50,041 nucleotides of DNA from a virus: positions 1 to 50,041 of IMG/VR virus record IMGVR_UViG_3300037200_000048; one strand, given 5' to 3'. The translations under genes and the position numbers were made by a program. Below are positions 4,927-35,418 of the stretch, one piece after another. Position 1 is the first letter of the stretch. Each line of letters begins with the position of its first letter. The notes below the pieces were generated by a model. It saw only the letters and a list, made by a program, of their open reading frames with translations. It had not been told where the DNA came from and searched no databases.

Positions 4927-5497
4927 GAGAGAGATAGCCGCCTACGAATATGGCGACGTGATTGTTCCTAACGGGAAGTCGGGCGACTGGGAGGTTTCCG
5001 AGCGCACCGTTAGCAAGTTTGAGTCGATGATGTCGAGTATTCGCGGCGGGTCGCTGTTCCACTGTCCCGAGGGGACGTATAAGACGCTTACCTGCGGCTT
5101 CGATTGCGTGATGTCGAATACTCCAATGGAGTTGCGTACCAACCGCGCGTTTGTCCGGGCCGCTGAAGGGCATGTTCACATAAATGGGCTGGGCCTCGGA
5201 GTTGTTCTGCTGGCTGTCCTGATGAAGCTTGAGGTTGAGTCTGTAACGGTAGTTGAGAAGTCGCCGGACGTGATTTCCTTGGTCGCGCCGTCGTTCGCTA
5301 GCTTCGACAAGTTGACCATAATTCAGGGCGATGCGCTCGAATATAAGCCGCCATCCAAGAAGAGGTTCGGAGCCGTTTGGCACGATATTTGGAATGGGAT
5401 ATGCGAAGACAATCTAGACGACATGCGCTTGCTGCACCGCCGATGGGGACGAAAAACTCAATGGCAGGGCAGCTGGGCGCGGGAGCTAATCCGATGA
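4910..5497 (+). CDS. class I SAM-dependent methyltransferase-like protein
   Basis: A 195-residue Rossmann-type protein. NGLGLG at 92-97 is the SAM-binding loop (motif I), followed by a strand ending in an acidic residue (VTVVEKSPD, E116), as expected for ribose contact, and IIQGDALEY as the motif III region. No DPPY-type motif is seen, so base methylation of DNA is not shown; similar phage proteins are annotated only as methyltransferases or spermidine-synthase-like. The start at 4910 follows GAGGAG with 7-base spacing. It ends in an ATGA overlap with the next gene. The short, basic C-terminus is unusual. Confidence 0.7.
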   Translation: MPNLNEREIAAYEYGDVIVPNGKSGDWEVSERTVSKFESMMSSIRGGSLFHCPEGTYKTLTCGFDCVMSNTPMELRTNRAFVRAAEGHVHINGLGLGVVLLAVLMKLEVESVTVVEKSPDVISLVAPSFASFDKLTIIQGDALEYKPPSKKRFGAVWHDIWNGICEDNLDDMRLLHRRWGRKTQWQGSWARELIR

Positions 5498-5835
5498 CAA
5501 TGCCAAATGAGAAGACAGCGCACACGCCTTGGAGCGCGGAACAGAGAGCGCAGGCCATCCGTGACACTGAGGCGATGGTAGCTGTATCCCAACGCGCTAC
5601 AGCCGTGGAGGCCTATAACGACATGGCCATCGAACTTGCTTGCCAGCGCAACCGGCTTCTACAGGCTCTCCAATTGCTACTGAAGGACGAACTCCAAGCG
5701 AAGCGCAACGAAGCGGCACGATGGGGAATAGTGGGTACGGACGCTGCACTCGAGGCGCGATTTCCAGACGGCCCCTATGACAATATCAATCAGGCCCGCG
5801 CAGCCATCGCCCTAGCCACAGGAGGGAAGCCATGA
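5494..5835 (+). CDS. hypothetical helical protein, 113 aa
   Basis: ATGA overlap with the methyltransferase gene. The sequence is helical (QRAQAIRDTEAMVAVSQRAT; LACQRNRLLQALQLLLKDEL), with an ARFPDGPYDNINQARAAIAL end. It is conserved-looking in style but not recognised. Its stop again overlaps the following ATG. Confidence 0.6.
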   Translation: MTMPNEKTAHTPWSAEQRAQAIRDTEAMVAVSQRATAVEAYNDMAIELACQRNRLLQALQLLLKDELQAKRNEAARWGIVGTDAALEARFPDGPYDNINQARAAIALATGGKP

Positions 5836-13661: not shown

Positions 13662-15455
13662 CTAGTGTCCTATGGCTCCTCCGGCCATCACTCCGCCCGA
13701 AAAGGTACTGCCTCCGCCAAGCACAATTGTAAACGTCCCCTGCACCAGAGAGCTCGGCAGGCTTGCATAACTCACTCCAGCCATCGCATAGAGATTTTGC
13801 GTGAACGAAACCGCAATCGGCCCCGTATAGAGCGTGGCGTTTGGGCACCCGCCCTGATTGTCTGGCTGGGGAAGGAACGTCGGCAGAGTTGAGGACAGGA
13901 CGTAGCAGATGTAAGGCGTAGCCGATCCTGTGGCAGTCGTCGAGAGCGTGACCATCTGTGTACCCGAATAAGTTCCGGGGACGGGAGACATCGTGGGCGA
14001 GTTCGCGGGAGCTTGGCCGGATGGAGAACTGCCATCCCAGAACGGGTTGACTATATAGGCCACCGATCCAACCGCGCTATCGCTGAGACCCGTTCCGCCA
14101 GCGACAGCGTAAATGGGGCCGTTCGATGTCACGGGAATTGGGGCCGTGTACAGCGTCCCAGTCGCGCATCCGGTCGATCCGTTGGTTGCCGGAGCGCCTG
14201 TCGTGTTCCAACAGGTTGTCCCTCCGTGTGCAGCCGTAAGTTGAACCGTCTGGTAACCGTTGTAGTAGATTTCTCCGGGCTGGTTGAATATCGGGATTGA
14301 ACCTGTGCCTGTGATGTTGAGGGCCACGCTAGCTACCGTGCTATCCCCTGCTGCACCTGCGACCGCTGCGACCGCATAGACGTTGCGCCCAGACGGAATG
14401 GATATAGGCCCCGTATAGAGCGTCCCGTTCGGGCAACCTCCAATTCCATCGGAGAATACACCGCCGGTGAAGTTGTAGCAGATGTAGCTTCCACCCGTAG
14501 AGTCGGAGAGCGTGAGCGACTGGGTTCCTGAGTAAGTTCCAGATGCCAGAGAAAATGTGGGAGCAGCCGCTGGCGAAAGGCTGCTGTAAGTCCACGAGTT
14601 GATCCAGGTCGAGCCGGGAAGGTTGGCATTGTTGCCCTCGACGAGTCCTACGTATGCCGTAGTCCCGCTCACAACGGATGGGATATAGATTGGCCAAGTA
14701 TGAGTGAAGCAGTTTGCGCTTGGGCAGGAATAACCGAGAGTCTGGTCGTACATCTGCATCGTGATGTGCGAGCCGGTGTAGGTCAGCGTAACCACGTAGA
14801 CGTCGCCAGTGGTCGAGAACTGCACCGGAGAGGCCTGCTGGGGGACTGGGTAGGTGCTGATCCTGTTTGTGGCTACATACGGGAACGGAGAGCTTCCGCC
14901 CTGAGTGGGCAGACACGGCTCTATTGCGGATATGAACATCTGTACAGTCGAGTAGTTGTAGGTGTAGATCGCGGGGTAGTTGATCGAGTCCTGCATGTCC
15001 GCAACCTGCAATGCAAACACGTTATTCGGAGGGTACGAGGTTGGGGGAATCCCGTCCGCTTGGAAAAATCCACCTTCACACCCGGCCCCGCCGAGGAAGA
15101 TGTTTCCCTGGTAACCCGGACTGTTCGTCGTGTTGTTGAAGACGAAGGCCAGGTTCTGCCCGTTCGGGATAAAGGCAAAGGTGGACGTGAATGCAGTTAC
15201 GTTCACCGGGACGTAGTAGTTCAGCGCAACCGGCTGATGCCCGGCGTTGGGCGGCGACAACTGGACTTGAGGCTGGGTCGTCCCGATAGGGCTAGGAAAC
15301 CCATAGATGATAAGCTGCCCTGACCCTATGGCGGTCGCGTTGGTCACAGAGCAAGGGCCGCTCCCCGAAGCATTGAAGCCGGACGAGCAGTTGATTTGGG
15401 CGTGGAGTGCCGCAGCGCTCAGCAGAGCAAGGATGGAGAGTAAGCGCTTTATCAC
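13662..15455 (-). CDS. secreted L-type-lectin-like adhesin with chitobiase C-terminal-like repeats, 597 aa
   Basis: GTG at 15455 overlaps the previous TGA (GTGA) and yields a signal peptide (IKRLLSILALLSAAALHAQ). Residues up to about 300 look like an L-type (legume) lectin-like beta sandwich: FAFIPNGQNLAFVFNNTTNS, ANSVFALQVADM-type phrase, and AYVGLVEGNNANLPGSTWIN. The rest holds three repeats of about 80-100 residues (YSGTQSLTLSDSTGG ... YTGPISIPSGRNVYAVA) like the CHB_HEX_C_1 (chitobiase C-terminal) module. Carbohydrate binding is likely. It may be a receptor-binding tail protein or an exported adhesin. Confidence 0.7.
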   Translation of the reverse strand: MIKRLLSILALLSAAALHAQINCSSGFNASGSGPCSVTNATAIGSGQLIIYGFPSPIGTTQPQVQLSPPNAGHQPVALNYYVPVNVTAFTSTFAFIPNGQNLAFVFNNTTNSPGYQGNIFLGGAGCEGGFFQADGIPPTSYPPNNVFALQVADMQDSINYPAIYTYNYSTVQMFISAIEPCLPTQGGSSPFPYVATNRISTYPVPQQASPVQFSTTGDVYVVTLTYTGSHITMQMYDQTLGYSCPSANCFTHTWPIYIPSVVSGTTAYVGLVEGNNANLPGSTWINSWTYSSLSPAAAPTFSLASGTYSGTQSLTLSDSTGGSYICYNFTGGVFSDGIGGCPNGTLYTGPISIPSGRNVYAVAAVAGAAGDSTVASVALNITGTGSIPIFNQPGEIYYNGYQTVQLTAAHGGTTCWNTTGAPATNGSTGCATGTLYTAPIPVTSNGPIYAVAGGTGLSDSAVGSVAYIVNPFWDGSSPSGQAPANSPTMSPVPGTYSGTQMVTLSTTATGSATPYICYVLSSTLPTFLPQPDNQGGCPNATLYTGPIAVSFTQNLYAMAGVSYASLPSSLVQGTFTIVLGGGSTFSGGVMAGGAIGH

Positions 15456-18400
15456 TTGCACCACCATGTAGCAGTCGCCAAGATGTAGTAGAAATTCATA
15501 ACTCCCGTCGCGGAGCATACATTGGCTATGTTCCCGCTGGTAACGGTCGTCCCGTTGACTCCTATAAGAGTGATCTCGCCTGTAAGCCCTGTAGTCGTGA
15601 ATGCAGAGGTAGAAGGCACTGTTATAGTTGCTAGAGCCGACATTGGGAGGGTTCCGGTGGTGTAGACGACCGGACTCAACGGGGTAAACGTCGTTTGCCC
15701 AGCCGTCACTGCTTGCGTGGTGGTGTTGTAGCCGTACACCCCGGATGAGTCGATATTTCCGACCTGTGACAGAGACCCTACGGCACTGTAAATAGCAATG
15801 ACGTTGTTGTTTCCCCCTAGCCCCATGTTGTAGGGAGAGTTTCCCATCGCAAGACTAGAAGCGACGATTCCCTGACCGAAGAACGATCCTGTATAGCCGC
15901 CCTGGAGCGCTTTGTTCCAATCGTTGTTGTCCGGGAAGTGCAATTCAGAGCCGTTCCATAACACGGCCAATGCGGGAGAGTTACCCGCCCCATTCGAGAG
16001 TTCAAAAGCAATCAGCGTTACCGGGGTGCCGCCGCTCTGCGTGTTCGTCGGCGTCCCATAAATTCCCCAAGTCAAGCCAGAGATGGTTGTGCCGCTAGCT
16101 CCCGTATAGGTCACGACCGATTCAGTGCCGCCAGCGTTTCCGCCGAAGAGAAGCGTCCCGACTGGAGGCAATCCAGTCGTGCCGCTCACGGTGCAACTGC
16201 TCGCGCCTCCGGTGCATGTGCCGCTTATGGTGATGGCTGTCGTATTTCCGTTTCCATAGTGGTTCTCGTTGCCCGCGAAATCGAACTGCGCCAGAGGAGA
16301 AGCGACATTGAAGCCAAGCGGCGATCCTGCCGTCGCCCCAGTGTGAATGATGTCGCTGGTCGCCGTTCCTGTCGTGCCGGGAGCCGCGTAGTAGATGCCT
16401 TGCCCAGTAGTTCCGGATGGCAGACCTCCACCACCCGCATAATTGGGTATATTTAGGACTCCTCCAGTATATGTAGCTGCACCGCTGCTTCCTGTTGTAG
16501 TCAGCGATAAAGGTGGGCCACCATTCTGTAAATCTATACCATTGGCCTTGAATACTGCATAATTTCCCGATGTACCTGCTGTAGGAACCAGCGCTCTAGG
16601 TGCTACCGCACCATTGTTATATGAATCTAATATCCTGTGAGTTGCGGAATCGCATATAGAATAATCGACTCCGGGCGCAGGCACACCAGCCGTGCTCGAT
16701 TCATCGCAGGCCCAACCGTGAGCGCCGGTTGGAAGAGCAGCGAGAGCGCCGGAAGAAGGGGTGCCGGCAATCAGGGTTGGCGAGCTGAAAGGCAACGTCG
16801 TGCCTGCCATGCCTCCAACTTCGGTAAAGCTCGAAGGCCCAATCAGCGCCCCTCCCAGAAACTTCGGCAGCGCGTTCGCCGCAGCGGTGTTCGACCCCAT
16901 CACGGTAGAGTCCGTCCCGCTGTTGTTCATGTGCCAGCTGTGGGTTACGGTCGCGGCGTACATCTGGTCGAAGCCCGATGATCCGCCGGCTGCCGTGCCT
17001 TCCGTGCCGGTCACAATGCCGCCGACGCCGCCTATCCCGGTCAAAGACAGCGACGTGCCCGATGCCGCACCCAGGGTTGGCGTCACGAAGGTCGGCGAGT
17101 TGGTCAGGGCGACGCTGCCCGTCCCGCTCGTCCCGTAGCTCGTCCCCCAGGCCGATCCAGTCGAGAGCGGTATCCCTGCTCCGGGGTAGGAGGCGCATCC
17201 TGCTCCAGTGCAAGTCCCTCCGATGTTCAAGTTGTGCAGGTTCAGCGTACCGAGACCGTTGCCTCCCGTTGTCGTGTCGAGACTGAATACACCCGGAGAT
17301 GGCTGAGTGATGCCAGCAGTCTGTCCGCCATTCTTCCAAGTGATCGCGCCTAAATAATTGAGGTTGACCGCACCCCCGGCATTTCCGAAGAACAGAGATC
17401 CGTTGAATCCACCGCCGCCGATTGTTATATTGCCCTGTGGAACACTAAAGTTTGAAGCGTATAAGTCCCACGACGGGGTTGTCCCAATCCCGTTGAGTTC
17501 AAGCTGAGTACCTCCGACGTTGAATATCTCTAAAGATGTCTGTCCGGGGAACGTATTTGTGAAGCAGATTACGCAAGTCAGCGGCGTGAAATTGCTTACC
17601 ATCAAATTCTGGTAGTACCCGAATGAGTCACCCAGACCTTGCTCATTGACTCCGAAGGCAAATAATGGAGGCAGCATATTCGGGATAGTCCCTGAGCAAG
17701 CCGTGTAGTAGCTGCAAGGATTGTCGTTCTCCACTTCAAGAGAGAAAGAATTGCCAGCAAACCCTGCGCCAGACGCTCTTATCTCTAGTGGCTGGAGTAT
17801 GTTTCCAGAACCTCCGGATGGAGTTTGCATCTGAGCCCCAATCAGCAGACCTGAAATATCGTTCTCAGGGAATCCGGGCGCTTCGAGTGTATGTCCTACC
17901 GTTCCCATCCCGGCGCACCCCGGACTGAGAACGGGGAGATAAGCGTTGGTTGCAAGCTCCTTCAGGATTTGGGCAGCGCAGAATGTTTGGAATCCAGCGT
18001 CGGACGATCCATCCGTCGTCGCAGCTTCAGAACCGGGCTGAGGGATGGAAATTGCCCCATTCGTGCCTCTAAGGGGAACGGAGTAGATCAAATACCCGCC
18101 AATCGAGCCAGGAGATAGATAATTAGTTCGATGACCGAGATGCGTGGATGGGCCGTTCAAGGAAATTCCCTGACAGCTTCCTTGAAAGACCGCGATGTTA
18201 GTGTTCGCGTTGTAAAGCGGCAGAGTCAAGGTCTGAGTGCCGGCAGACCCGCTCACGGCGCTCAAAACACTTTCTTCAGAATAGTTAGAGCCAATGACAC
18301 ACACAGTCGATCCAGACGTGAGCGATCCCACCCCGCCTTGCAACGTGAAGGTCTGAGATACAGGAGCATCAGGTGTAGTGGTCTGCACAAGGTTTACGCC

Positions 18401-19561
18401 CAGTTTGTAACCCCACACCGAGACGACCGGCACCGTGCCAGTGAACGGGAGTTGCTGTATCCACGGCAACGATATGGAGCTTTGATTGAAGGCTGCACTC
18501 GTACCGGTAAGCACTCCAGACCCGGTAGCGGTCGTGGTGTCTATCATCCACGACGGGGGTGGGGGAATGCACGTATCGCTTACACTGCTGCTCAGGCAGG
18601 CGGAAAGCGACGTGCTAGAAAATGTAGGCTGGGTCGCAGTGCCACCGCCCACCGTGCCGTGAAACCAATAGGCTCCTTCTCCGCCATAAATGGCTTCCTC
18701 AACGTGTCCTTCGTCCGATGGAAATGCTACCCCTTGATGGCCGAAGTCGTAGATGCGAATAAACCCGCCATCGCCAGCCGCATTCTGGTTGATCGATCCT
18801 CCGATGCCCGTGAAGATTTCAGATGTAGCGATGTTGTCGTTGATGGACAGTCCATAGCCTGTCTTATAACCTCCCTGCGCCCATCCCGGCCCTTGCGCAG
18901 AGTATTCCTGCGTTCTCAGAATCTGGGGAGCAGTCGTAGCATATGTGTAGTTATTGAAATTGACTTCATCTAGGTTGCAAGCCAAACCGCCAAGTGTCGC
19001 CCCCGGAGTTATGCAACTGGCGTCGGCAGAGTAGCTAAGAGACTGAGACCCTTCAAGGACGTTCGGAGTGGTAGTCCCGATAGGGCCGGGCGACGGCATC
19101 GACAACCCGTTTATCGCTGTAGTCGTGCTGCTGGCGGGAACCGAAGTCGAGCCAATAGTGATAGGAAATCCGCTACTTCCCCCCGTCGAGCCTACCTGAA
19201 CGTAATTGGCCCCGTCCGGGCAGTTCACCATAACCGTCGCTCCCGCTGCGATGGCGACTGTCGTTCCCGTTGACCCCCCAACAGTGATTGTCCCGCTCTC
19301 TGAATTGGTGACGGTATACGTCTGACCGATGTTCTTCGGAGCGACAATCGTAGTCGCCGTCCCAGAAATCTTGATGGAATAGTGCCACCATTCGTTCGCC
19401 GCAAGCGTATACGTCGATCCCGTCGTCGTGACCGAGTATCCGCCTAGCAAAGCTAGCCCGCCCGTATTGCCCACTGTGCCAGGCAGAAGCGTGGTTGGTG
19501 GTGCGCCCTGTCCCCAGAAAGCCGATGCAACGAGAAGGGCGAGTACGATTAGCTTCTTCAT
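15452..19561 (-). CDS. giant Ser/Thr/Gly-rich tail-fibre-like protein with signal peptide, 1369 aa
   Basis: The N-terminus (MKKLIVLALLVASAFWGQG) is a textbook signal peptide. The rest is low-complexity beta-rich sequence full of Gly, Ser and Thr, with many short strands such as TLAANEWWHYSIKI and tail-fibre phrases (TGTEGTAAGGSSGFDQMYAA; TGSVALTNSPTF). The last 600 residues look like a phage tail-fibre shaft and tip. It is the longest gene in the genome and is translationally coupled (ATGA, GTGA) to neighbours that also carry signal peptides. Likely host attachment. An export signal on a phage fibre is unexpected. Confidence 0.65.
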   Translation of the reverse strand: MKKLIVLALLVASAFWGQGAPPTTLLPGTVGNTGGLALLGGYSVTTTGSTYTLAANEWWHYSIKISGTATTIVAPKNIGQTYTVTNSESGTITVGGSTGTTVAIAAGATVMVNCPDGANYVQVGSTGGSSGFPITIGSTSVPASSTTTAINGLSMPSPGPIGTTTPNVLEGSQSLSYSADASCITPGATLGGLACNLDEVNFNNYTYATTAPQILRTQEYSAQGPGWAQGGYKTGYGLSINDNIATSEIFTGIGGSINQNAAGDGGFIRIYDFGHQGVAFPSDEGHVEEAIYGGEGAYWFHGTVGGGTATQPTFSSTSLSACLSSSVSDTCIPPPPSWMIDTTTATGSGVLTGTSAAFNQSSISLPWIQQLPFTGTVPVVSVWGYKLGVNLVQTTTPDAPVSQTFTLQGGVGSLTSGSTVCVIGSNYSEESVLSAVSGSAGTQTLTLPLYNANTNIAVFQGSCQGISLNGPSTHLGHRTNYLSPGSIGGYLIYSVPLRGTNGAISIPQPGSEAATTDGSSDAGFQTFCAAQILKELATNAYLPVLSPGCAGMGTVGHTLEAPGFPENDISGLLIGAQMQTPSGGSGNILQPLEIRASGAGFAGNSFSLEVENDNPCSYYTACSGTIPNMLPPLFAFGVNEQGLGDSFGYYQNLMVSNFTPLTCVICFTNTFPGQTSLEIFNVGGTQLELNGIGTTPSWDLYASNFSVPQGNITIGGGGFNGSLFFGNAGGAVNLNYLGAITWKNGGQTAGITQPSPGVFSLDTTTGGNGLGTLNLHNLNIGGTCTGAGCASYPGAGIPLSTGSAWGTSYGTSGTGSVALTNSPTFVTPTLGAASGTSLSLTGIGGVGGIVTGTEGTAAGGSSGFDQMYAATVTHSWHMNNSGTDSTVMGSNTAAANALPKFLGGALIGPSSFTEVGGMAGTTLPFSSPTLIAGTPSSGALAALPTGAHGWACDESSTAGVPAPGVDYSICDSATHRILDSYNNGAVAPRALVPTAGTSGNYAVFKANGIDLQNGGPPLSLTTTGSSGAATYTGGVLNIPNYAGGGGLPSGTTGQGIYYAAPGTTGTATSDIIHTGATAGSPLGFNVASPLAQFDFAGNENHYGNGNTTAITISGTCTGGASSCTVSGTTGLPPVGTLLFGGNAGGTESVVTYTGASGTTISGLTWGIYGTPTNTQSGGTPVTLIAFELSNGAGNSPALAVLWNGSELHFPDNNDWNKALQGGYTGSFFGQGIVASSLAMGNSPYNMGLGGNNNVIAIYSAVGSLSQVGNIDSSGVYGYNTTTQAVTAGQTTFTPLSPVVYTTGTLPMSALATITVPSTSAFTTTGLTGEITLIGVNGTTVTSGNIANVCSATGVMNFYYILATATWWCK

Positions 19562-20733
19562 CCTGTCACCACCACTGAATAAACTCCCGTCCCGTAGGTC
19601 GGCCCAACGTAAAGATTCATGCTGACCGTCACTCCATACTCATTGACAAAGCTAACCGGAATTGAGGCCAGAGTCGCGGGAAATCCATTTACATTGAACG
19701 TATGCCCCGCCCCAATGAGGAGCATGTAGAAATAGTTTCCGCTCAGCGTGAAATTGAACGTCGTCCCAACCGTCTCCGCACCCAACTGAAACGATGGCAG
19801 TGTGCCTGTGTCGCCCACCAGCACCGCACTTGTGCCGCTGGCGGTCGCTCCAGTAGCTCCACCGGATGTTCCCGTTCCACTGAAGATTCTAGGCGCGCAC
19901 GAGATAGACTGAGTGGCCGTCAAGGTAGTCCCCAAAGTTGCCGATAGAGTGAAAGTTACGAGAGTTCCCGGCGTCGATGCGCATGTATAACTATGGGCCA
20001 GACTCCAACTGGTAAACGGCGTGGTCAACGTGTCTACATTTGTCCCGTCTGAGACGTTGGCGCTGGCGGGAAGAGTCGAATAGCTTGCCGTCCCACTCAC
20101 CGGAGGCCCGACCGTCTGCCCCAACTCAACCGTGCCGCACTGTGTACAAACGAAGGAGTCGATAGCGAACGGAACGGTAAGGAAGATGTTGATGTTGCGG
20201 CCTACAGACGAAATTCCCAGTCCAGACCCTACCGTGATGGTGAGGATGCCCTGCTCTCCATTGACAGAGATTACCCCGCCGCTCGGCCCTCCGCATGTAA
20301 CGACTGGAGCCAATGCCGAGAGCGCAGTGCTTAGGTTGAGCGTCGTCCCCGTAACGGTAAAGATGCCGTTGAACGACCGCTGCGGGCAGACATTCGGAGG
20401 GCTTGCCTGTGACTGAATAGAGAAGTTGTACTGCGTCCCCGTGGGGTTGGGCGAGGCCGGGGCGGTAAAGGACGTGTTCGACAGCACCGGCACGGAAAAG
20501 TACCCGGCAGCGTTGCAATTTCCGGTTACAGGGTAATTGTTGAACGGTATCCCACCGATGAAAACAGGGGATGTCGAAATGTCCTGCCCGGTCGAGGAGA
20601 CGAGCGAGATGTTGTAGACACAATTGGAGATTTGAGTGCCGTTGGCGTCCGTAAGCGATGCGCTGACCTGGGTGTTCTGGGCCAGTACGGGCGATGCAAG
20701 AAGCACGAGCAGGATGGAGAGGAGTCGCTTCAT
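19558..20733 (-). CDS. secreted beta-rich tail protein, 391 aa
   Basis: Signal peptide MKRLLSILLVLLASPVLAQ, nearly the same as that of the lectin-like gene. The mature part starts with a domain (QVSASLTDANGTQISNCVYN) resembling tail-fibre N-terminal attachment or carboxypeptidase-regulatory-like domains, followed by beta-rich Ser/Thr sequence. ATGA overlaps at both ends. Probably forms one assembly with the next two proteins. Confidence 0.65.
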   Translation of the reverse strand: MKRLLSILLVLLASPVLAQNTQVSASLTDANGTQISNCVYNISLVSSTGQDISTSPVFIGGIPFNNYPVTGNCNAAGYFSVPVLSNTSFTAPASPNPTGTQYNFSIQSQASPPNVCPQRSFNGIFTVTGTTLNLSTALSALAPVVTCGGPSGGVISVNGEQGILTITVGSGLGISSVGRNINIFLTVPFAIDSFVCTQCGTVELGQTVGPPVSGTASYSTLPASANVSDGTNVDTLTTPFTSWSLAHSYTCASTPGTLVTFTLSATLGTTLTATQSISCAPRIFSGTGTSGGATGATASGTSAVLVGDTGTLPSFQLGAETVGTTFNFTLSGNYFYMLLIGAGHTFNVNGFPATLASIPVSFVNEYGVTVSMNLYVGPTYGTGVYSVVVTG

Positions 20734-30075: not shown

Positions 30076-31062
30076 TTAGTTCGGAAGGCCCGTGATGGTG
30101 ATATTCATGCGAGGCGAGATGCACGACAAGTTCCACGTCAGGTACATCGTCGAGACCAACACGCGCTGGTTGCTCGGCTTCACGAACGGATCGACGTTGA
30201 AGTAGTCGGCCTCGTGGAAGACGGGGAAGATGTACTTCGAGTTCAGGAACATCGCAATCCCGGTTGGGCAGAAGTAGTCCGGCACCGTGACGGCATTGTT
30301 GAACAGGAAGTGGTTGCGGAAGCCAACCTGCAACGCCTCATCGTCCTGCATTCCTTGACCGAAGCGGACTTCGGTGGTGAAGTTTGCCTTGAACGCGGCG
30401 TAATTCAGCCGGTTCATCACGCAGAGGTCAGGCTCGTCGTACCCCCAGGTCACGTTCTGGTAGGCAGGCTCGAAGATTGCCGGAGTGACCGCTCCGCCCG
30501 AAGCGTAGTTTGCAGCGGGCAGCCAGAAGGCGTTGGCGGCAGTCGAGCGGTTGATGCCGGCGATGGTGTTGGTGGTGGTCTGCACCCACGACACAAGATC
30601 GTCGATGTCGAGCGAAGTGTTCTGCGGAGCGGTGTGCCAGATGGCGCGGGAGAGCTTCTGGAGGAACGACGCAGAGGCCGTCTGGTACTTCGCCTTGATG
30701 AGGTCGAGGTTCCCAGCCCCGCCCCGGTTGAGAATGATGTCCGTTACCGGAATCACGATGGGCTGGCGGTAGGGCTTCCACTGCTGGTTCGCAGGCTGAA
30801 TCGAGTCAACCACGGAGGTATCGAGCAGTTGGTCGCCATAGTAGGCACCGCCCGGAAGCTCCTCTTGGTAGATTTCGGGGAAGACAAGCTCGCCTGCACC
30901 GAACTTCTTACCTTCGCGGGTCAGTGCCCAGAACACCGGAGAGGGCTTGAAGACGTTATCGCCGAGTACCGGGACGATGTACTTCTGGCTGATTGCGTTG
31001 ACCGTGTTGGAAAGTTGTACCGGGGGAGACGCAAGCCCCAGACCAACGACTGAATTTGCCAT
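30076..31062 (-). CDS. major capsid protein (HK97-type)
   Basis: A 328-residue protein lying directly after the scaffold gene, with the normal length for podovirus capsid proteins. ELVFPEIYQEELPGGAYYG near residue 57 (E-loop region), QWKPYRQPIVIPVTDIILNR (spine helix entry) and FNVDPFVKPSNQRVLVSTMY (P-domain and A-domain strands) fit the HK97 fold. TAAGGAG lies before its ATG. It would form the icosahedral head around the scaffold. Confidence 0.75.
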   Translation of the reverse strand: MANSVVGLGLASPPVQLSNTVNAISQKYIVPVLGDNVFKPSPVFWALTREGKKFGAGELVFPEIYQEELPGGAYYGDQLLDTSVVDSIQPANQQWKPYRQPIVIPVTDIILNRGGAGNLDLIKAKYQTASASFLQKLSRAIWHTAPQNTSLDIDDLVSWVQTTTNTIAGINRSTAANAFWLPAANYASGGAVTPAIFEPAYQNVTWGYDEPDLCVMNRLNYAAFKANFTTEVRFGQGMQDDEALQVGFRNHFLFNNAVTVPDYFCPTGIAMFLNSKYIFPVFHEADYFNVDPFVKPSNQRVLVSTMYLTWNLSCISPRMNITITGLPN

Positions 31063-31073
31063 GCTCTATCTCC

Positions 31074-31892
31074 TTAGTTCGCCCACTGCTTCCCAACTGT
31101 GTTCCAAAGTTCGCTGTCTTGGCCCGCCGCTGCAATTGCCTCATCGAGCGAGAGCGTCTTGCCTTTGTCGTCCGTCCCTTTGAATCCGGTGTCGAGGATA
31201 CGCGGCCCGTGGACGCCGGGGCGCTGCATGGCTGCAAGAGCCTCACGATCCTTGGTGAGTTCCGTCTTCTTCGCTGTCACTTCGGCAAGCTCGGCTTCTT
31301 TACGGGCGTCCCACGTCAAGCGGTCAACCGCAGCGTGGATATCGAGCCGTCCATGCTCATCCAGCAGTTTCCGATCGGTCGCAAACTTGATAGCCTGCTC
31401 CAGTTTCACCTGGTTGCGAATGCCCTCTGGGAGTGCCGCCTGTTCACGGGCAAAGACAGAGTTGTAGTTGTCGTCCAGGTAGCCCTTCATGGCCTGCTGG
31501 GTGACGGTACGAACCTGAGCCACCTGCCCTTTGACTTCCTCCACGACGGCTTGTATCTTGGCCATCTCTGCGCGGACTTCTTTTACCATCGGGCCGAAGA
31601 GAGGATCGTTCTCGTCCATGCCGGTCGTCTCGCGGACATGATCGGCAACCTGCCTCCGGCTGGGAACCACAACTTCCATCTTGTCGTCCAGCAGACCGGC
31701 GGTACGGAGCTTGGTCACGCGCTCCAATACTCCCTGCTCGGCAAGTTCCAGTTGCTGCTGACGGGCCAATAGAGCCTGCCGCTCCGAAGTGGCCAACTGC
31801 CGCATCTCTCCAACTGTGGCCGACGAACCATCGGGCAATGCGATAACCAGATCGTCGGCGTAGGTTCCTGTCGTCAGAATGTCTTTCAGCAT
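31074..31892 (-). CDS. capsid scaffolding protein, 272 aa
   Basis: Highly charged helical protein with a long coiled coil (RQALLARQQQLELAEQGVLE; VKGQVAQVRTVTQQAMKGYL) and an acidic/basic C-terminus, sitting immediately before the capsid gene. This position and composition are standard for scaffold proteins that guide capsid assembly and are lost on packaging. No protease domain is fused to it. Confidence 0.7.
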   Translation of the reverse strand: MLKDILTTGTYADDLVIALPDGSSATVGEMRQLATSERQALLARQQQLELAEQGVLERVTKLRTAGLLDDKMEVVVPSRRQVADHVRETTGMDENDPLFGPMVKEVRAEMAKIQAVVEEVKGQVAQVRTVTQQAMKGYLDDNYNSVFAREQAALPEGIRNQVKLEQAIKFATDRKLLDEHGRLDIHAAVDRLTWDARKEAELAEVTAKKTELTKDREALAAMQRPGVHGPRILDTGFKGTDDKGKTLSLDEAIAAAGQDSELWNTVGKQWAN

Positions 31893-32315
31893 TTATGCTG
31901 CTCCTTGGGCGAACTGCTGTAGGTTTTGCTGTCCCTGTGGCGGCTGGCCCGCGCCGTTGGCGATGGGGGCCGCTACCGTGGATGCAACCTCAGCCGCCTT
32001 TTGGCAGGCTTTGATTGCCGCATCGCAATACTTCTGGGCCTGCGCTACCGGGGTCGCTACGTCGGGCATGGCAAACGCCGCGCGGGGGTAAATTGCGACC
32101 AATTGGCTCTTGATCTGATTGAGAATCTTCATCATCGAATTGGGGTCGGCACCCTGCAATTCGGCAAGCTGCGTCTGAATCTGCTGTCCCGCTTCGTCTC
32201 CCCCCGGAGGCTGACCCTGACCCGGTTGACCTCCGCCCGGAGGCTGACCCTGCGGAGCCAGTTTCGATAGAAGCTGACGCGCCATGATCCCCGCAATTGG
32301 ACTGCCTGCGCTCAT
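31893..32315 (-). CDS. Gln/Pro/Gly-rich head protein, 140 aa
   Basis: The N-terminal third is low complexity (APQGQPPGGGQPGQGQPPGG, about 20-39), followed by a helical part (NSMMKILNQIKSQLVAIYPR; PVAQAQKYCDAAIKACQKAA). Its ATG overlaps the TGA of the 33-aa basic ORF. Part of the head module between the portal and scaffold genes; may cooperate with scaffold. Function unknown. Confidence 0.6.
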   Translation of the reverse strand: MSAGSPIAGIMARQLLSKLAPQGQPPGGGQPGQGQPPGGDEAGQQIQTQLAELQGADPNSMMKILNQIKSQLVAIYPRAAFAMPDVATPVAQAQKYCDAAIKACQKAAEVASTVAAPIANGAGQPPQGQQNLQQFAQGAA

Positions 32316-32413
32316 CGCGCCCCTTTGCGCTGCGGCGTGTTGCGGAAAGAGTTCTTGGGAACCTTCGTATGCGAGGACTTCAAACCCTTCGACTTCAGAC
32401 CCTTCATCTTCAT
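32312..32413 (-). CDS. 33-aa Lys/Arg-rich basic peptide
   Basis: ATGA overlaps at both ends, strong support for translation. 11 of 33 residues are Lys or Arg (MKMKGLKSKGLKSSHTKVPK at the start) and none is acidic, so it should bind nucleic acid. One of several basic mini-ORFs in the head module; possibly packaged with DNA, but unproven. Confidence 0.55.
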   Translation of the reverse strand: MKMKGLKSKGLKSSHTKVPKNSFRNTPQRKGAR

Positions 32414-32577
32414 TCGCGGCCCGCTTTCTTCGAGTTGCCCGGAATTAGCCTCAGCGGATCGGTTGGCATGGCTACGGGGTTGTTACGCACATCGGGGCCA
32501 GGCTCGTTGGAAGGACGGCCAACGGTGAGGGGACTCTTAAGTATTTTGTCGTCAAATGCCTTGCCGCCAAATTCCAT
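32410..32577 (-). CDS. small hypothetical protein, 55 aa
   Basis: Shine-Dalgarno CTGGAGAAGATC. Proline-rich and mostly disordered by composition (VGRPSNEPGPDVRNNPVAMP). Its end is coupled to the 33-aa basic ORF. Function unknown. Confidence 0.55.
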   Translation of the reverse strand: MEFGGKAFDDKILKSPLTVGRPSNEPGPDVRNNPVAMPTDPLRLIPGNSKKAGRE

Positions 32578-32647
32578 GATCTTCTCCAGAGTGGTACACC
32601 GGGAGTCCCGTCAGGAACCCCCGGCTAGGGAGTGCAAGAGGGGAGTC

Positions 32648-32698
32648 CTAACGGCGAGTGCTGAGTTTGGGCTTGCGCCGTCCACCGCGTCTCGGCAT
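32648..32698 (-). CDS. 16-aa Arg-rich basic peptide
   Basis: The complete product is MPRRGGRRKPKLSTRR: 8 of 16 residues are Arg or Lys, similar in style to protamine-like peptides. AGAGG lies 6 bases before the ATG. An ORF this short could be chance; its support is the Shine-Dalgarno, composition and neighbours. Confidence 0.4.
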   Translation of the reverse strand: MPRRGGRRKPKLSTRR

Positions 32699-32786
32699 AA
32701 GAACCTCTTTCGCTCTGCTGGTAACGCCAGCAAATCGTCTAAGAGCGGCGGGCGCGAAAGCCAGCAACAGCACCGCTCGTTTTCAG

Positions 32787-32891
32787 CTATTTGGAACTGC
32801 CTCGTTGAGAGGAGTTCTTCTTAGCCAGAGCGCGCGCGTCGGAGAGAAATTTCTTCGGATTTTTGAAGTCCTTGATTATCTTCTTCGGCAC
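32787..32891 (-). CDS. 34-aa Lys-rich basic peptide
   Basis: GTG start 5 bases after a perfect GAGGAG. The sequence begins MPKKIIKDFKNPKKFLSDAR (with fMet), 11 basic of 34. Likely a cationic helix. In the row of basic mini-genes downstream of the portal. Confidence 0.5.
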   Translation of the reverse strand: MPKKIIKDFKNPKKFLSDARALAKKNSSQRGSSK

Positions 32892-32905
32892 ACTTGCTCC
32901 TCAAA

Positions 32906-32965
32906 CTACTTCCGCTTGCTGTGCTTCTTGCCGTGACGCTTGTGCTTTACGCGGGTCTCGAACAT
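32906..32965 (-). CDS. 19-aa Lys/Arg/His-rich basic peptide
   Basis: Complete product MFETRVKHKRHGKKHSKRK, 9 basic plus 3 His of 19. AGAGGAGGGC precedes the ATG with good spacing, and its ATG begins two bases after the previous stop (TAATATG). Probable nucleic-acid binding. Confidence 0.5.
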   Translation of the reverse strand: MFETRVKHKRHGKKHSKRK

Positions 32966-32966
32966 A

Positions 32967-33224
32967 TTAGAAGCCCTCCTCTTGCCTCTTCAGGATTTCG
33001 TCCATCGGAAGCGGATTGCGAGCGTCGCCGTAAATATGGATCAGAACCTCAGACTGACGGGCGATGTAGGCCAGATAGCCTTTGTCCGTCAGGCACTCAG
33101 GAAGTTCCCTTGTGCTCTTGTGATCGTCGATAGCCGGGGCCAAAATGCCATTGACGGCAACCTGAACCTGAATATCTCCGTTCCCAAGGTCTGTGTAGCG
33201 AACCAACTCTACGGCAGCCTGCAT
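32967..33224 (-). CDS. hypothetical head-module protein, 85 aa
   Basis: The ATG at 33224 is the first canonical start in this frame but its Shine-Dalgarno is poor, and upstream codons (TNPLAATLKGYTLSN) read as plausible protein, so the true start may lie further up. The product (VELVRYTDLGNGDIQVQVAV) is beta-rich. Stop TAA is immediately followed by the ATG of the 19-aa peptide. Function unknown. Confidence 0.5.
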   Translation of the reverse strand: MQAAVELVRYTDLGNGDIQVQVAVNGILAPAIDDHKSTRELPECLTDKGYLAYIARQSEVLIHIYGDARNPLPMDEILKRQEEGF

Positions 33225-33283
33225 ATTGGAAAGCGTATAGCCTTTTAGGGTTGCGGCAAGAGGGTTGGTTCGCCGCTGACATC

Positions 33284-33514
33284 CTACAGAAGGGAAGATG
33301 GCACGAGGAAATACAGACGGCAACGGTCTCCACTTGACCCGCCGCGCCTGCCTCTTCCCATTTTTCTCCCCTCGAAACGCAATGACTCGTCCATCAGAAC
33401 AAGGATGCCAAAGTTGGAGAAATGCCCTGTCTTTGCGTATTTCTGCGCCCAACGGCGAGTCCTTCCCATGATCAAGGCGAACTCTTCCGAAGTGATCCAG
33501 ACATGATCGTTCAT
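33284..33514 (-). CDS. Mu-type winged-helix-like DNA-binding protein, 76 aa
   Basis: ATGA overlap with the portal gene. HVWITSEEFALIMGRTRRWA then KYAKTGHF, and GRKMGRGRRGG before RLYFLVPSSLL, follow the pattern of Mu repressor-type or excisionase-type DNA-binding domains (W-T-x-x-E, Gly turn, Arg-rich wing, YLVxxLP end). By-eye assignment. Its place behind the portal gene is unusual for a regulator; it may bind phage DNA during packaging. Confidence 0.45.
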   Translation of the reverse strand: MNDHVWITSEEFALIMGRTRRWAQKYAKTGHFSNFGILVLMDESLRFEGRKMGRGRRGGSSGDRCRLYFLVPSSLL

Positions 33515-35112
33515 CGCTTCTTGCCCTTCATGATTCCCGCCAAAGCCTGTAACTGAAGCTGCTCTTTCTGCTCCTCCGCAATCTTCTCCGCGTGAGGGAT
33601 TCCGAGCATTTGCAGCCCGCGCTCGGTGTTGAGGACTCCCGTCTTCATCAGTTCCGGGACCATGCGGCGCAACGCCAGCTCGCTCAACGGCTGGATTGAA
33701 TCTTCGTCCAGCATGAGGTCGTAGTTGTGCGGGTCGAGGATGCCTTCCCACTGCACTACATCGGTAGACTTGTCTCCCCGGAACGGCATGGAGAAGCGCC
33801 CCATATAGCGCCCCATCGTGTAGAACATGCAGGTTGCGAGTTGGGAAATAGTGAACGATTGAAGCCTTCCCGCAAGCTGCAACATCCCTGAAGATTGCAG
33901 GATGGACGACTCGAACAGAGAGGTCGAAACATTGCCCTGCCCAGGGTTTCCCTGCTTGGCTTCCGTCTGGCCTTGAAGCCGCTGCTGGATTTTTAGCAGA
34001 TCGGCTGGCAGTTGGTATGCCTGCGAAGAGAGAGCGGGTGCCGTCCGGCATTCGGGGATTCTTGAATTTGGATTGATCGACTGGACTTCTCCAGGCATCC
34101 CGCCGAACGCTTCTACGTCGATTCCCGTGCTTTGGTCGATGAACCACGTTCCATTGTTGAGCCGGACGGCATTTTCGTACAGTTGCGTGTATAGTTTTTC
34201 TCCCATAGTTTGCAGAGACTCGGAAAAGCGCGTAACTGGGATGCCCCAAGGCCCGTAGAGCGGCGGCAGCGCCCACATCGGGAACAGAGGAAAGAATGGC
34301 GATGGAATGTCTGTCCGCTTCGGGTAAGGGTTCGACCCATCCGACAGGATAAAGCCTTCGCACTCTACCAGGTATCTTCCGTTGGGGTACTTCCACTTGA
34401 ACTCAGGATCGGTCAGCGCCCCATCTGGGATATTCTTTTCATCCACGATTTCGCGCGTGTAGTCCTTGCAAAAAACGTGCCGGACGCGAAGCCGGGTATC
34501 CGAGTTTGTCCTCCCAAGCTGGGAAGAAATACCCGGCATACCCGGCATTGAAGTCATGGGGCCGTTCGGCATCTGGAAACCGTACCCCGATCCGGTCTGC
34601 TGAAGAGACGCCGTGGACGACCCCGCTCCGACAATCTTGATGCTCTTCGAGGTGTGAGGCCATCGCTGGCGAATCTCCTCGACATGCATCCAGTCCTCAA
34701 AATACAGGTAGCTGGGATCGAACTCGTAATCGGTCGTAGGGTCGAACCCCACCGTCCGAGGGTCGCGCGACTTGACCCATAGACCGCCTTTGCCATTTCT
34801 CAGGTCGGGCGAGTAGCAGAGTTGCAGAAATCCCGTTCCAGTGTAACGCGAGGCCGTCGTAGCGAAGAGAGAGTGATAATTGACCCGCGCCTGCTGCCAC
34901 TGGGCCTGCAACGCTTTCTCGCGCCCCTCCGCTCTCTCCCCATCGTTGAAGATGTAAACCTGCGGCGAGATGTCGGAGATGCGGTTTGAGTCTTCGAGGA
35001 TGATCTTTTGCAGTTCGGGAATATTGATAGCCGGGCGGAAAGACGGCACTTCCCCGGTCGGCCCCTTGAGGCTGTAAAGCGCCTCCGCAGCAGCAAAAGC
35101 GTTCTCTCCCAA
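33511..35112 (-). CDS. portal protein (open reading frame continues upstream of first start)
   Basis: A protein of at least 533 residues. Early phrases ISDISPQVYIFNDGERAEG and TTASRYTGTGFLQL, the long helix region, and the C-terminal LALRRMVPELMKTGVLNTER are typical of podovirus portals, and it lies between terminase and scaffold genes. The first codon given (TTG, 35112) has no good Shine-Dalgarno. The same frame continues 42 codons upstream with protein-like sequence (SDPDQYRDPRCKHIENWVEQ) until an amber codon at 35239-35241, so the true start is non-canonical or the amber is read through. Confidence 0.75.
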   Translation of the reverse strand: MGENAFAAAEALYSLKGPTGEVPSFRPAINIPELQKIILEDSNRISDISPQVYIFNDGERAEGREKALQAQWQQARVNYHSLFATTASRYTGTGFLQLCYSPDLRNGKGGLWVKSRDPRTVGFDPTTDYEFDPSYLYFEDWMHVEEIRQRWPHTSKSIKIVGAGSSTASLQQTGSGYGFQMPNGPMTSMPGMPGISSQLGRTNSDTRLRVRHVFCKDYTREIVDEKNIPDGALTDPEFKWKYPNGRYLVECEGFILSDGSNPYPKRTDIPSPFFPLFPMWALPPLYGPWGIPVTRFSESLQTMGEKLYTQLYENAVRLNNGTWFIDQSTGIDVEAFGGMPGEVQSINPNSRIPECRTAPALSSQAYQLPADLLKIQQRLQGQTEAKQGNPGQGNVSTSLFESSILQSSGMLQLAGRLQSFTISQLATCMFYTMGRYMGRFSMPFRGDKSTDVVQWEGILDPHNYDLMLDEDSIQPLSELALRRMVPELMKTGVLNTERGLQMLGIPHAEKIAEEQKEQLQLQALAGIMKGKKR

Positions 35113-35238: not shown

Positions 35239-35418
35239 CTAGTCCCTGTATCCATCGCGGAACGTGCTTACCCGCTTCGACTTCACTTTTCCTTTGCCCG
35301 ACTTGCCTTTCGGCTTGGCATGGCGTCCGTGGGCATGGCGTCGCGGGTTCTCCATCGCCATTGCCTTCGATTCGTCGTCCGGTGCGGTTGTCTGATACTT
35401 CGCTCTGGCTGTACCCAT
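35239..35418 (-). CDS. 59-aa basic protein upstream of portal
   Basis: GGAGGG 7 bases before the ATG at 35418. N-terminal half mixed (MGTARAKYQTTAPDDESKAM), C-terminal half very rich in Lys, Arg and His (RRHAHGRHAKPKGKSGKGKV). It ends in TAG, and the portal frame continues in register after that TAG. It may be a separate nucleic-acid-binding head peptide or, by readthrough, the N-terminal extension of the portal. Confidence 0.6.
   Translation of the reverse strand: MGTARAKYQTTAPDDESKAMAMENPRRHAHGRHAKPKGKSGKGKVKSKRVSTFRDGYRD

Follow-up and report, generated by a model that had tools for sequence, protein, structure and literature searches.

Results

The stretch of DNA analyzed here (the window) is the complete 50,041-bp linear virus record IMGVR_UViG_3300037200_000048 of IMG/VR, the minus strand of which carries a head module. 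Read with profile matches, its genes run from the terminase large subunit (phrog_2, E 5e-20) through a gene of 166 aa, a basic gene of 59 aa, the portal protein (33511..35112; phrog_156, E 2.6e-5), a helix-turn-helix (HTH)-like gene, an 85-aa gene (g85) and a row of mini-ORFs to a Q/G/P-rich gene of 140 aa, a scaffold-like gene of 272 aa and the major capsid protein (30076..31062; phrog_9953, E 5e-21). The scaffold-like protein (31074..31892, minus strand, as are all features below) is named from its position and composition and is syntenic in nearly all related loci; it had no significant match among the Pfam and PHROGs families. The 140-aa gene (31893..32315), likewise present in nearly all loci, borders the row on the capsid side, and g85 (32967..33224), which is conserved and has tblastn matches in several clades, lies upstream of it. 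Elsewhere in the window, two structural-type proteins of 1369 aa (15452-19561) and 391 aa (19558-20733) have a Lys+Arg content of only about 1% (19 and 5 residues, respectively) and signal-peptide-like N-termini, MKKLIVLALLVASAFWGQG and MKRLLSILLVLLASPVLAQ.

The row consists of five mini-ORFs of 19, 34, 16, 55 and 33 aa, here called m1 to m5, between the portal gene and the scaffold and capsid genes. Four are rich in Lys and Arg (16-34 aa, K+R 0.32-0.50). These are m1 (32906..32965; MFETRVKHKRHGKKHSKRK, 9 K/R, net +8), with the Shine-Dalgarno (SD) sequence AGGAGG 9 nt upstream; m2 (32787..32891; 11 K/R, net +9), which starts with GTG, has the SD GAGGAG and contains a conserved core, KDFxxPKKFLxDxRA; the Arg-rich m3 (32648..32698; MPRRGGRRKPKLSTRR, 8 K/R, net +8), which has an AGAGG SD region and lies behind a pseudoknot described below; and m5 (32312..32413; 11 K/R, net +11), which is joined by ATGA overlaps to m4 on one side and to the next gene on the other. 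The exception is m4 (32410..32577; SD GGAG), a conserved protein that is not basic (net +2) and for which an alignment of 18 sequences gave the consensus FDxxILKSPLTVGRPxNEPGPDVxNNPVAxPxDPLxxIPG. The initial annotation, made from the window alone, had described just such a row of five ORFs downstream of the portal, four of them strongly Lys/Arg-rich and several with strong SD sites or ATGA overlaps, and all of this was borne out, as was a sixth basic ORF of 59 aa upstream of the portal gene (35239..35418; net +10), which is conserved at 36-54% identity in many loci. It had also placed a DNA-binding-like protein in between; an HTH-like 76-aa ORF does follow the portal gene (33284..33514) and is conserved in many loci, although its match to Pfam HTH_17 is weak (E 0.054).

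Profile scans of the 34-, 33-, 55- and 59-aa ORFs against Pfam and PHROGs returned no significant match, m1 and m3 being below the 20-residue limit of the scan. The earlier claim that no known podovirus module is composed in this way holds for Pfam, PHROGs, Rfam and the isolates inspected.

To follow the row in relatives, viral contigs were searched with the capsid protein, which gave 71 loci at 58-94% identity, and with a profile, which added loci down to 56% capsid identity; querying with the 55-aa gene yielded 50 loci. The row was inspected in part of the 144 capsid relatives, all of which are metagenomic except for the isolates, and statistics were computed on 78 dereplicated related IMG/VR loci. 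The portal protein, used in the same way, found no matches in viral contigs and none among phage records, whereas the capsid query did work. From 91% down to about 56% capsid identity, the row or its core was found at the same place. Closer loci carry the complete row with its order kept and strong SDs, a large sister clade has the order m1-m2-m3-(another basic ORF)-m4, and a third clade has m1-m4-m5. Among distant viruses, nearly all have at least one short basic ORF in the same slot (locus L121 is an exception). The shortest peptides have 11 residues, as in MARRKRHSKRK, which lies behind an AGGAGG SD. An m1-type ORF of 9-24 aa is present in 73 of the 78 loci with a median K+R of 0.54, and it retains this K+R content while its sequence and length drift. 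Counterparts of m2 were found in 38 loci, of m3 in 41 (with the SD AGGAGG in 38) and of m4 in 60; 22 loci have m5 counterparts downstream of m4, and in the sister clade a different basic ORF lies upstream of m4 in 30 loci.

LAGLIDADG-like ORFs (DWARLAAYIDGEGC) lie within the minigene row of some loci (L021 5654-6199, L060 5999-6430, and the m1-m4 gaps of L024 and L051), which suggests that homing elements target the minigene slot. A separate observation concerns the terminase large subunit of two relatives, G003 (L031) and G004 (L050), where two matching pieces about 1 kb apart lie in a single long frame (965 and 937 aa), the pattern expected of an intein.

The abundance of tiny basic ORFs in the slot was compared with chance, counting ORFs of 12-24 aa with K+R of at least 0.38 and an SD of at least 5 nt. 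In the 78 loci the slot contained 119 such ORFs, compared to 0.65 expected from dinucleotide shuffles; the antisense strand contained none, and the rest of the same loci contained 8 in 1.82 Mb-strand. Eleven loci scored zero, mostly because their ORF is 11 aa long, exceeds 24 aa or has a weaker SD. Close pairs of relatives differ mainly at third codon positions, and in-frame pN/pS was 0.15 for m1, 0.34 for m2, 0.37 for m3, 0.18 for m4 and 0.16 for the m5 of the sister clade, compared to 1.1-4.2 out of frame (m1 4.2 and 3.1, m2 1.2-1.4, m3 1.1-2.1); these values are descriptive, the pairs being phylogenetically non-independent. The minigene families tested are under purifying selection, and, judged from their sequences, the mini-ORFs are real, previously unrecognized genes. 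Together with the synteny, these data establish the genes and the selection on them. The relatives thus support the earlier reading of the ORFs as genes that form a module with basic composition as its conserved feature, and the outcome that had been named as speaking against it, relatives that lack the ORFs or their basic character, is not what they display. The alternative that the mini-ORFs are chance ORFs without function draws on the fact that each, taken alone, is short enough to have arisen by chance; it is refuted by the 119 ORFs observed against 0.65 expected, the fixed order, the in-frame selection and the strong SDs, and we give it practically no credence.

The gaps between the minigenes are long for a phage. 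In the m2-m3 gap of the window, a hairpin begins 8 nt past the m2 stop codon with its 5′ arm GAGCGGTG (32771..32778), which is complementary to the 3′ arm CGCCGCTC (32743..32750). The loop between them carries the motif GCTGGCTTTCGCGC (32752..32765), recognized from its copies in relatives and a compensatory change, and includes the anti-SD sequence CTTTCGC (32754-32760), which pairs with GCGAAAG (32707..32713), the 3′ strand of a pseudoknot that runs into the m3 SD (GCGAAAGAGG). With both strands counted, 2.04 Mb of loci hold 47 copies of the motif, in the form GCTG-GCCTTCGCGC, and every one of them is in the slot before m3. It forms the loop of a hairpin whose arms vary in sequence while their complementarity is kept, as in GAGCGGTG/CGCCGCTC in the window, AGACAATG/CATTGTCT in L002, GGGAGTG/CACTCCC in L006 and CATCTCAG/CTGAGATG in L051. 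The loop sequence CCTTCGC complements GCGAAGG(AGG), which forms the SD region of the minigene that follows, and this second helix shows a compensatory change, being CTTTCGC/GCGAAAG in the window and L005 and CCTTCGC/GCGAAGG elsewhere.

In an alignment of 21 distinct sequences, 97.1% of the cells pair compared to 73.7% after shuffling, a percentage that is favored by the script-based extraction of the arms for best pairing; the informative part of the alignment is the many distinct pair types rather than the percentage paired. The covariation score was 0.633, compared to 0.157 ± 0.022 for shuffled alignments (0 of 500 reached it), and it collapsed when the pairing register was slid by one column. 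All eight pairs of the outer helix have changed on both sides; of the seven pseudoknot pairs five are invariant, a sixth has changed on one side, and the seventh carries a double change. Arms paired better with their own partner than with swapped arms (19.5 versus 7.0), and the unpaired loop bases GCTG and GCC are near-invariant while the stems vary freely. These covariation counts are limited to the motif-bearing set, because automated choice of the outer stem picked wrong helices in some loci.

The same layout in other sequence was found in loci without the motif (GGGCTCTCC/GGAGAGCCC in L132, AGTCTCC/GGAGACT in L128, TTTGCTC/GAGCAAA in L060 and CTTCTCTC/GAGAGGAG in the third clade); these layouts were read by eye, and several were also recovered by script. 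The position of the hairpin is regular: of 38 loci, 35 have it 6-8 nt past the m2 stop codon, the distance to the upstream stop codon being 7-8 nt in most loci, and in the third clade it directly follows the g85 stop codon in most loci with a g85 match. A scan of 2.9 million viral contigs for the exact RNA pattern alone gave 17 matches, all in viruses of this group; 16 of them are in known contigs, and the one new contig also has m2-m3-m4-m5. Per-locus pseudoknot scores of at least 38 were reached by 53% of the tiny genes, while shuffles and control genes did so in 4% and 2% of cases, respectively; this separation is moderate, and the case rests on the covariation. The minimum free energy of the m2-m3 gap was not unusual per locus (median z -0.6), as expected since a pseudoknot is not representable in such a calculation, which is why covariation was used instead. 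Searches of Rfam with the window and four related loci (L017, L029, L050 and L037) gave no match above the gathering threshold, and a relaxed threshold returned weak noise.

The covarying stem and the loop-SD helix are both supported across relatives, and covariation establishes the hairpin and the pseudoknot. The pseudoknot appears to hide the m3 SD region, with masking of the SD as its probable effect. This element over the SD region of the 16-aa gene had been overlooked in the initial annotation; it would add a layer of translational control, and RNA binding thereby becomes a serious candidate, as an alternative role or an additional one.

Other parts of the row are structured as well. A 12-bp hairpin without a U-tract, predicted by RNAfold, lies in the m3-m4 gap of the window (32598..32625), and the m3-m4 and m1-m4 classes of gap have median z values of -2.3 and -2.0. 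Strong hairpins of variable sequence, again without a U-tract, occur in many loci between the last tiny gene and m4 and are possibly mRNA processing or stability elements. In the sister clade, though absent from the window, a second conserved structured RNA occupies the m3-m5 gap, before the m5-type basic minigene. It has an invariant GGTGGGGGACTA-type loop and CGAAAGCGTTCGATGCGCAAGACAGGA, followed by a variable hairpin, and is aptamer-like, with a median fold z of -3.0; alignment A4 places it at L007:4479-4598 and in 29 other loci. A search for its core identified 46 contigs, and all eight of those previously unseen carry minigenes of the row. It had no Rfam match.

Tunturi 1 and 2 are cultured acidobacterial podoviruses whose host is Tunturiibacter (PMC11924767), and they provide a link to cultured viruses. 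Their capsid protein belongs to the same family (phrog_9953, E 5.8e-17; profile comparison E 4e-5), and their portal-capsid slot contains an unannotated 22-aa Lys-rich ORF, MAKESKKEMKKEELKKKKSGKK, with the SD AGGAGG, followed by a basic 43-aa ORF. The 22-aa ORFs, at 5736-5804 in Tunturi 1 (L226, PP887698) and 5167-5235 in Tunturi 2 (L230), are identical to each other, and the Tunturi-like contig L231 has, upstream of the capsid gene, a 27-aa ORF ending in FKHKGKKSRKRARK. Stenotrophomonas phage BUCT555, of the same capsid family, also has a gene between portal and capsid, which encodes a 52-aa basic protein (phrog_16759) that additionally matches families of virion structural proteins at their N-terminus; in contrast to the row, it is a single gene without evident similarity to m1-m5. 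The distant-capsid isolates Mx8, Mx9 and ppBjS10J-1 are without the row, as are CRP-7 and Vibrio 1.205. The row, used as a DNA query, had no match in the phage collection, and tblastn searches of phages with m2, m4 and the 140-aa protein were also negative. No relative was found in the collection of bacterial and archaeal genomes. The Tunturi link suggests a host among the Acidobacteriota.

Discussion

The explanation we favor, to which we give an even chance, is that the row comprises genuine and presumably late genes for short, probably disordered nucleic-acid-binding peptides, which are co-expressed with the head proteins and act at head filling, one of them being gated by an RNA switch. 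The peptides would be made together with the portal, scaffold and capsid proteins and would most likely act on the genome as the head is filled, like the J/VP8 peptide of phiX174 and other microviruses, through charge neutralization or condensation, and they may be packaged. The location of the row fits action during head assembly or packaging, and the conservation of charge and small size over sequence in m1 fits electrostatic binding of nucleic acid. The dosage of m3 would be set by the mRNA: with the hairpin loop paired to the SD region m3 would be silent, and a ribosome finishing the upstream gene would open the hairpin and allow m3 to be translated. Such translational coupling is the simplest trigger, since the 5′ arm of the hairpin is close enough to be reached by a ribosome that has halted at the end of the upstream gene. 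Alternatively, a ligand, perhaps the m3 peptide itself, might alter the fold, and the invariant unpaired loop bases leave room for one. We infer that m3 is regulated, by coupling or by autoregulation, and that the peptides bind nucleic acid and may be packaged. A packaged, protamine-like role is compatible with the position and composition of the genes, although a place in the head operon is no proof of packaging. Tailed phages normally use cations and polyamines, so a condensing function is not forced by precedent. A regulatory RNA is superfluous if the peptides merely condense DNA in bulk, and it would suit an RNA-binding regulator equally well. The stronger proposal, that these are a new class of tailed-phage micro-proteins, down to 11 residues, which organize or condense packaged dsDNA as a multi-gene protamine-like module and regulate themselves via an mRNA pseudoknot, is one that we advance tentatively and regard as doubtful.

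Several other readings were weighed. The basic peptides could be RNA-binding regulators of the arginine-rich-motif type, comparable to lambda N or autoregulating ribosomal proteins, that bind the structured RNAs adjacent to their genes, adjust late translation or transcription in this way and have no part in the virion. Two conserved RNA elements do precede two basic-peptide genes (the pseudoknot before m3 and the aptamer-like RNA before m5 in the sister clade), and near-invariant GCTG and GCC loop bases between freely varying stems are as expected of a recognized RNA. However, three to four different basic peptides per genome exceed the needs of a simple feedback loop, all of their genes sit in the head operon, and translational coupling explains the position of the hairpin after a stop codon without any ligand, so we consider a purely regulatory function rather improbable. 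A slot between portal and scaffold in every clade examined would equally suit peptides that assist assembly by attaching to acidic patches on the portal, scaffold or capsid, through protein-protein rather than nucleic-acid contacts, and the non-basic m4, which is the best conserved member of the row, resembles a docking peptide; yet m1 keeps little beyond positive charge and small size, which is unusual for a specific protein interface and leaves this possibility unlikely.

Host-takeover genes are usually early and variable, whereas the row keeps its place within the head module in all loci examined, which makes it very unlikely that the peptides are directed at the host, for example as cationic membrane-active or inhibitor peptides, and that their location is incidental, even though many phage-encoded small proteins do act on the host (review PMC11323111). 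Least probable among the readings in which the ORFs are functional, and in our view hardly credible, is that they are leader peptides, inert products whose translation controls downstream RNA structure. The short ORFs do adjoin hairpins, and stable hairpins follow m3 or m1 before m4. Nonetheless, synonymous exceed nonsynonymous changes per site, residues other than Arg and Lys are conserved, nearly every minigene has its own SD, and the hairpins inspected have no following U-tract. In a leader-peptide attenuator the peptide would be dispensable and only regulatory codons would matter, which does not fit the in-frame pN/pS values of 0.15-0.37.

The peptides of our preferred reading, which would act on nucleic acid at head filling, have analogs in other viruses. 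The microvirus peptide J/VP8 (phiX174 J, SpV4 VP8) guides the genome and lines the capsid interior, and SpV4 VP8 is ordered over residues 9-38 with its C-terminus docked in a capsid pocket (PMC11281519). The row shares with it very short Arg/Lys-rich peptides encoded with the capsid genes; J/VP8 differs in being longer and the product of one gene of a non-tailed ssDNA virus, whereas the row encodes several peptides, each about 11-45 aa long, and belongs to a tailed phage with a dsDNA genome. Similarity in sequence is not claimed. The adenovirus core peptide mu is protamine-like, condenses dsDNA and is cut from a precursor. Baculovirus P6.9 is also protamine-like and is regulated by phosphorylation (PMC12159748). 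Both resemble the row in their tiny protamine-like composition, with condensation of a dsDNA genome as their function, but they belong to eukaryotic viruses, whereas the row is made of separate minigenes with their own SDs.

For the RNA, the nearest parallel is the operator of T4 gene 32, an mRNA pseudoknot upstream of the ribosome-binding site that nucleates gp32 binding (PMC535899, PMC3014915). In both cases a phage mRNA pseudoknot lies upstream of a gene for a nucleic-acid-binding protein, in m3 a putative one; the m3 loop differs in pairing directly with the SD region, and its hairpin abuts the upstream stop codon. In plasmid repZ (ColIb-P9/IncI-alpha), a pseudoknot coupled to termination of a leader peptide promotes translation of the replication gene. 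There too a hairpin is opened by a ribosome terminating just upstream, but the repZ pseudoknot promotes translation while that of m3 would mask the SD. Homology to J/VP8, mu, P6.9 or T4 gene 32 was neither found nor is it expected at such lengths. Fremin et al. 2022, as cited in PMC11323111, made genome-wide predictions of many small genes in phages, and some ORFs of the row may sit unnamed in small-gene catalogs of this type.

In a virus group without a close isolate in the phage collection searched, these data reveal several conserved micro-genes, each about 11-45 codons long, that form a cassette together with a new and probably regulatory RNA. Such micro-genes escape annotation, and the deposited annotation of Tunturi 1 and 2 is also without theirs. 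Since these cultured phages carry an ORF in the slot, the idea can be tested in culture; the packaging and RNA-binding readings are both testable with a cultured phage and a simple reporter. If the peptides bind RNA, they would be among the smallest candidate autoregulators. If they are packaged, tailed phages would be using a protamine-like strategy that has until now been known from microviruses and from DNA viruses of eukaryotes.
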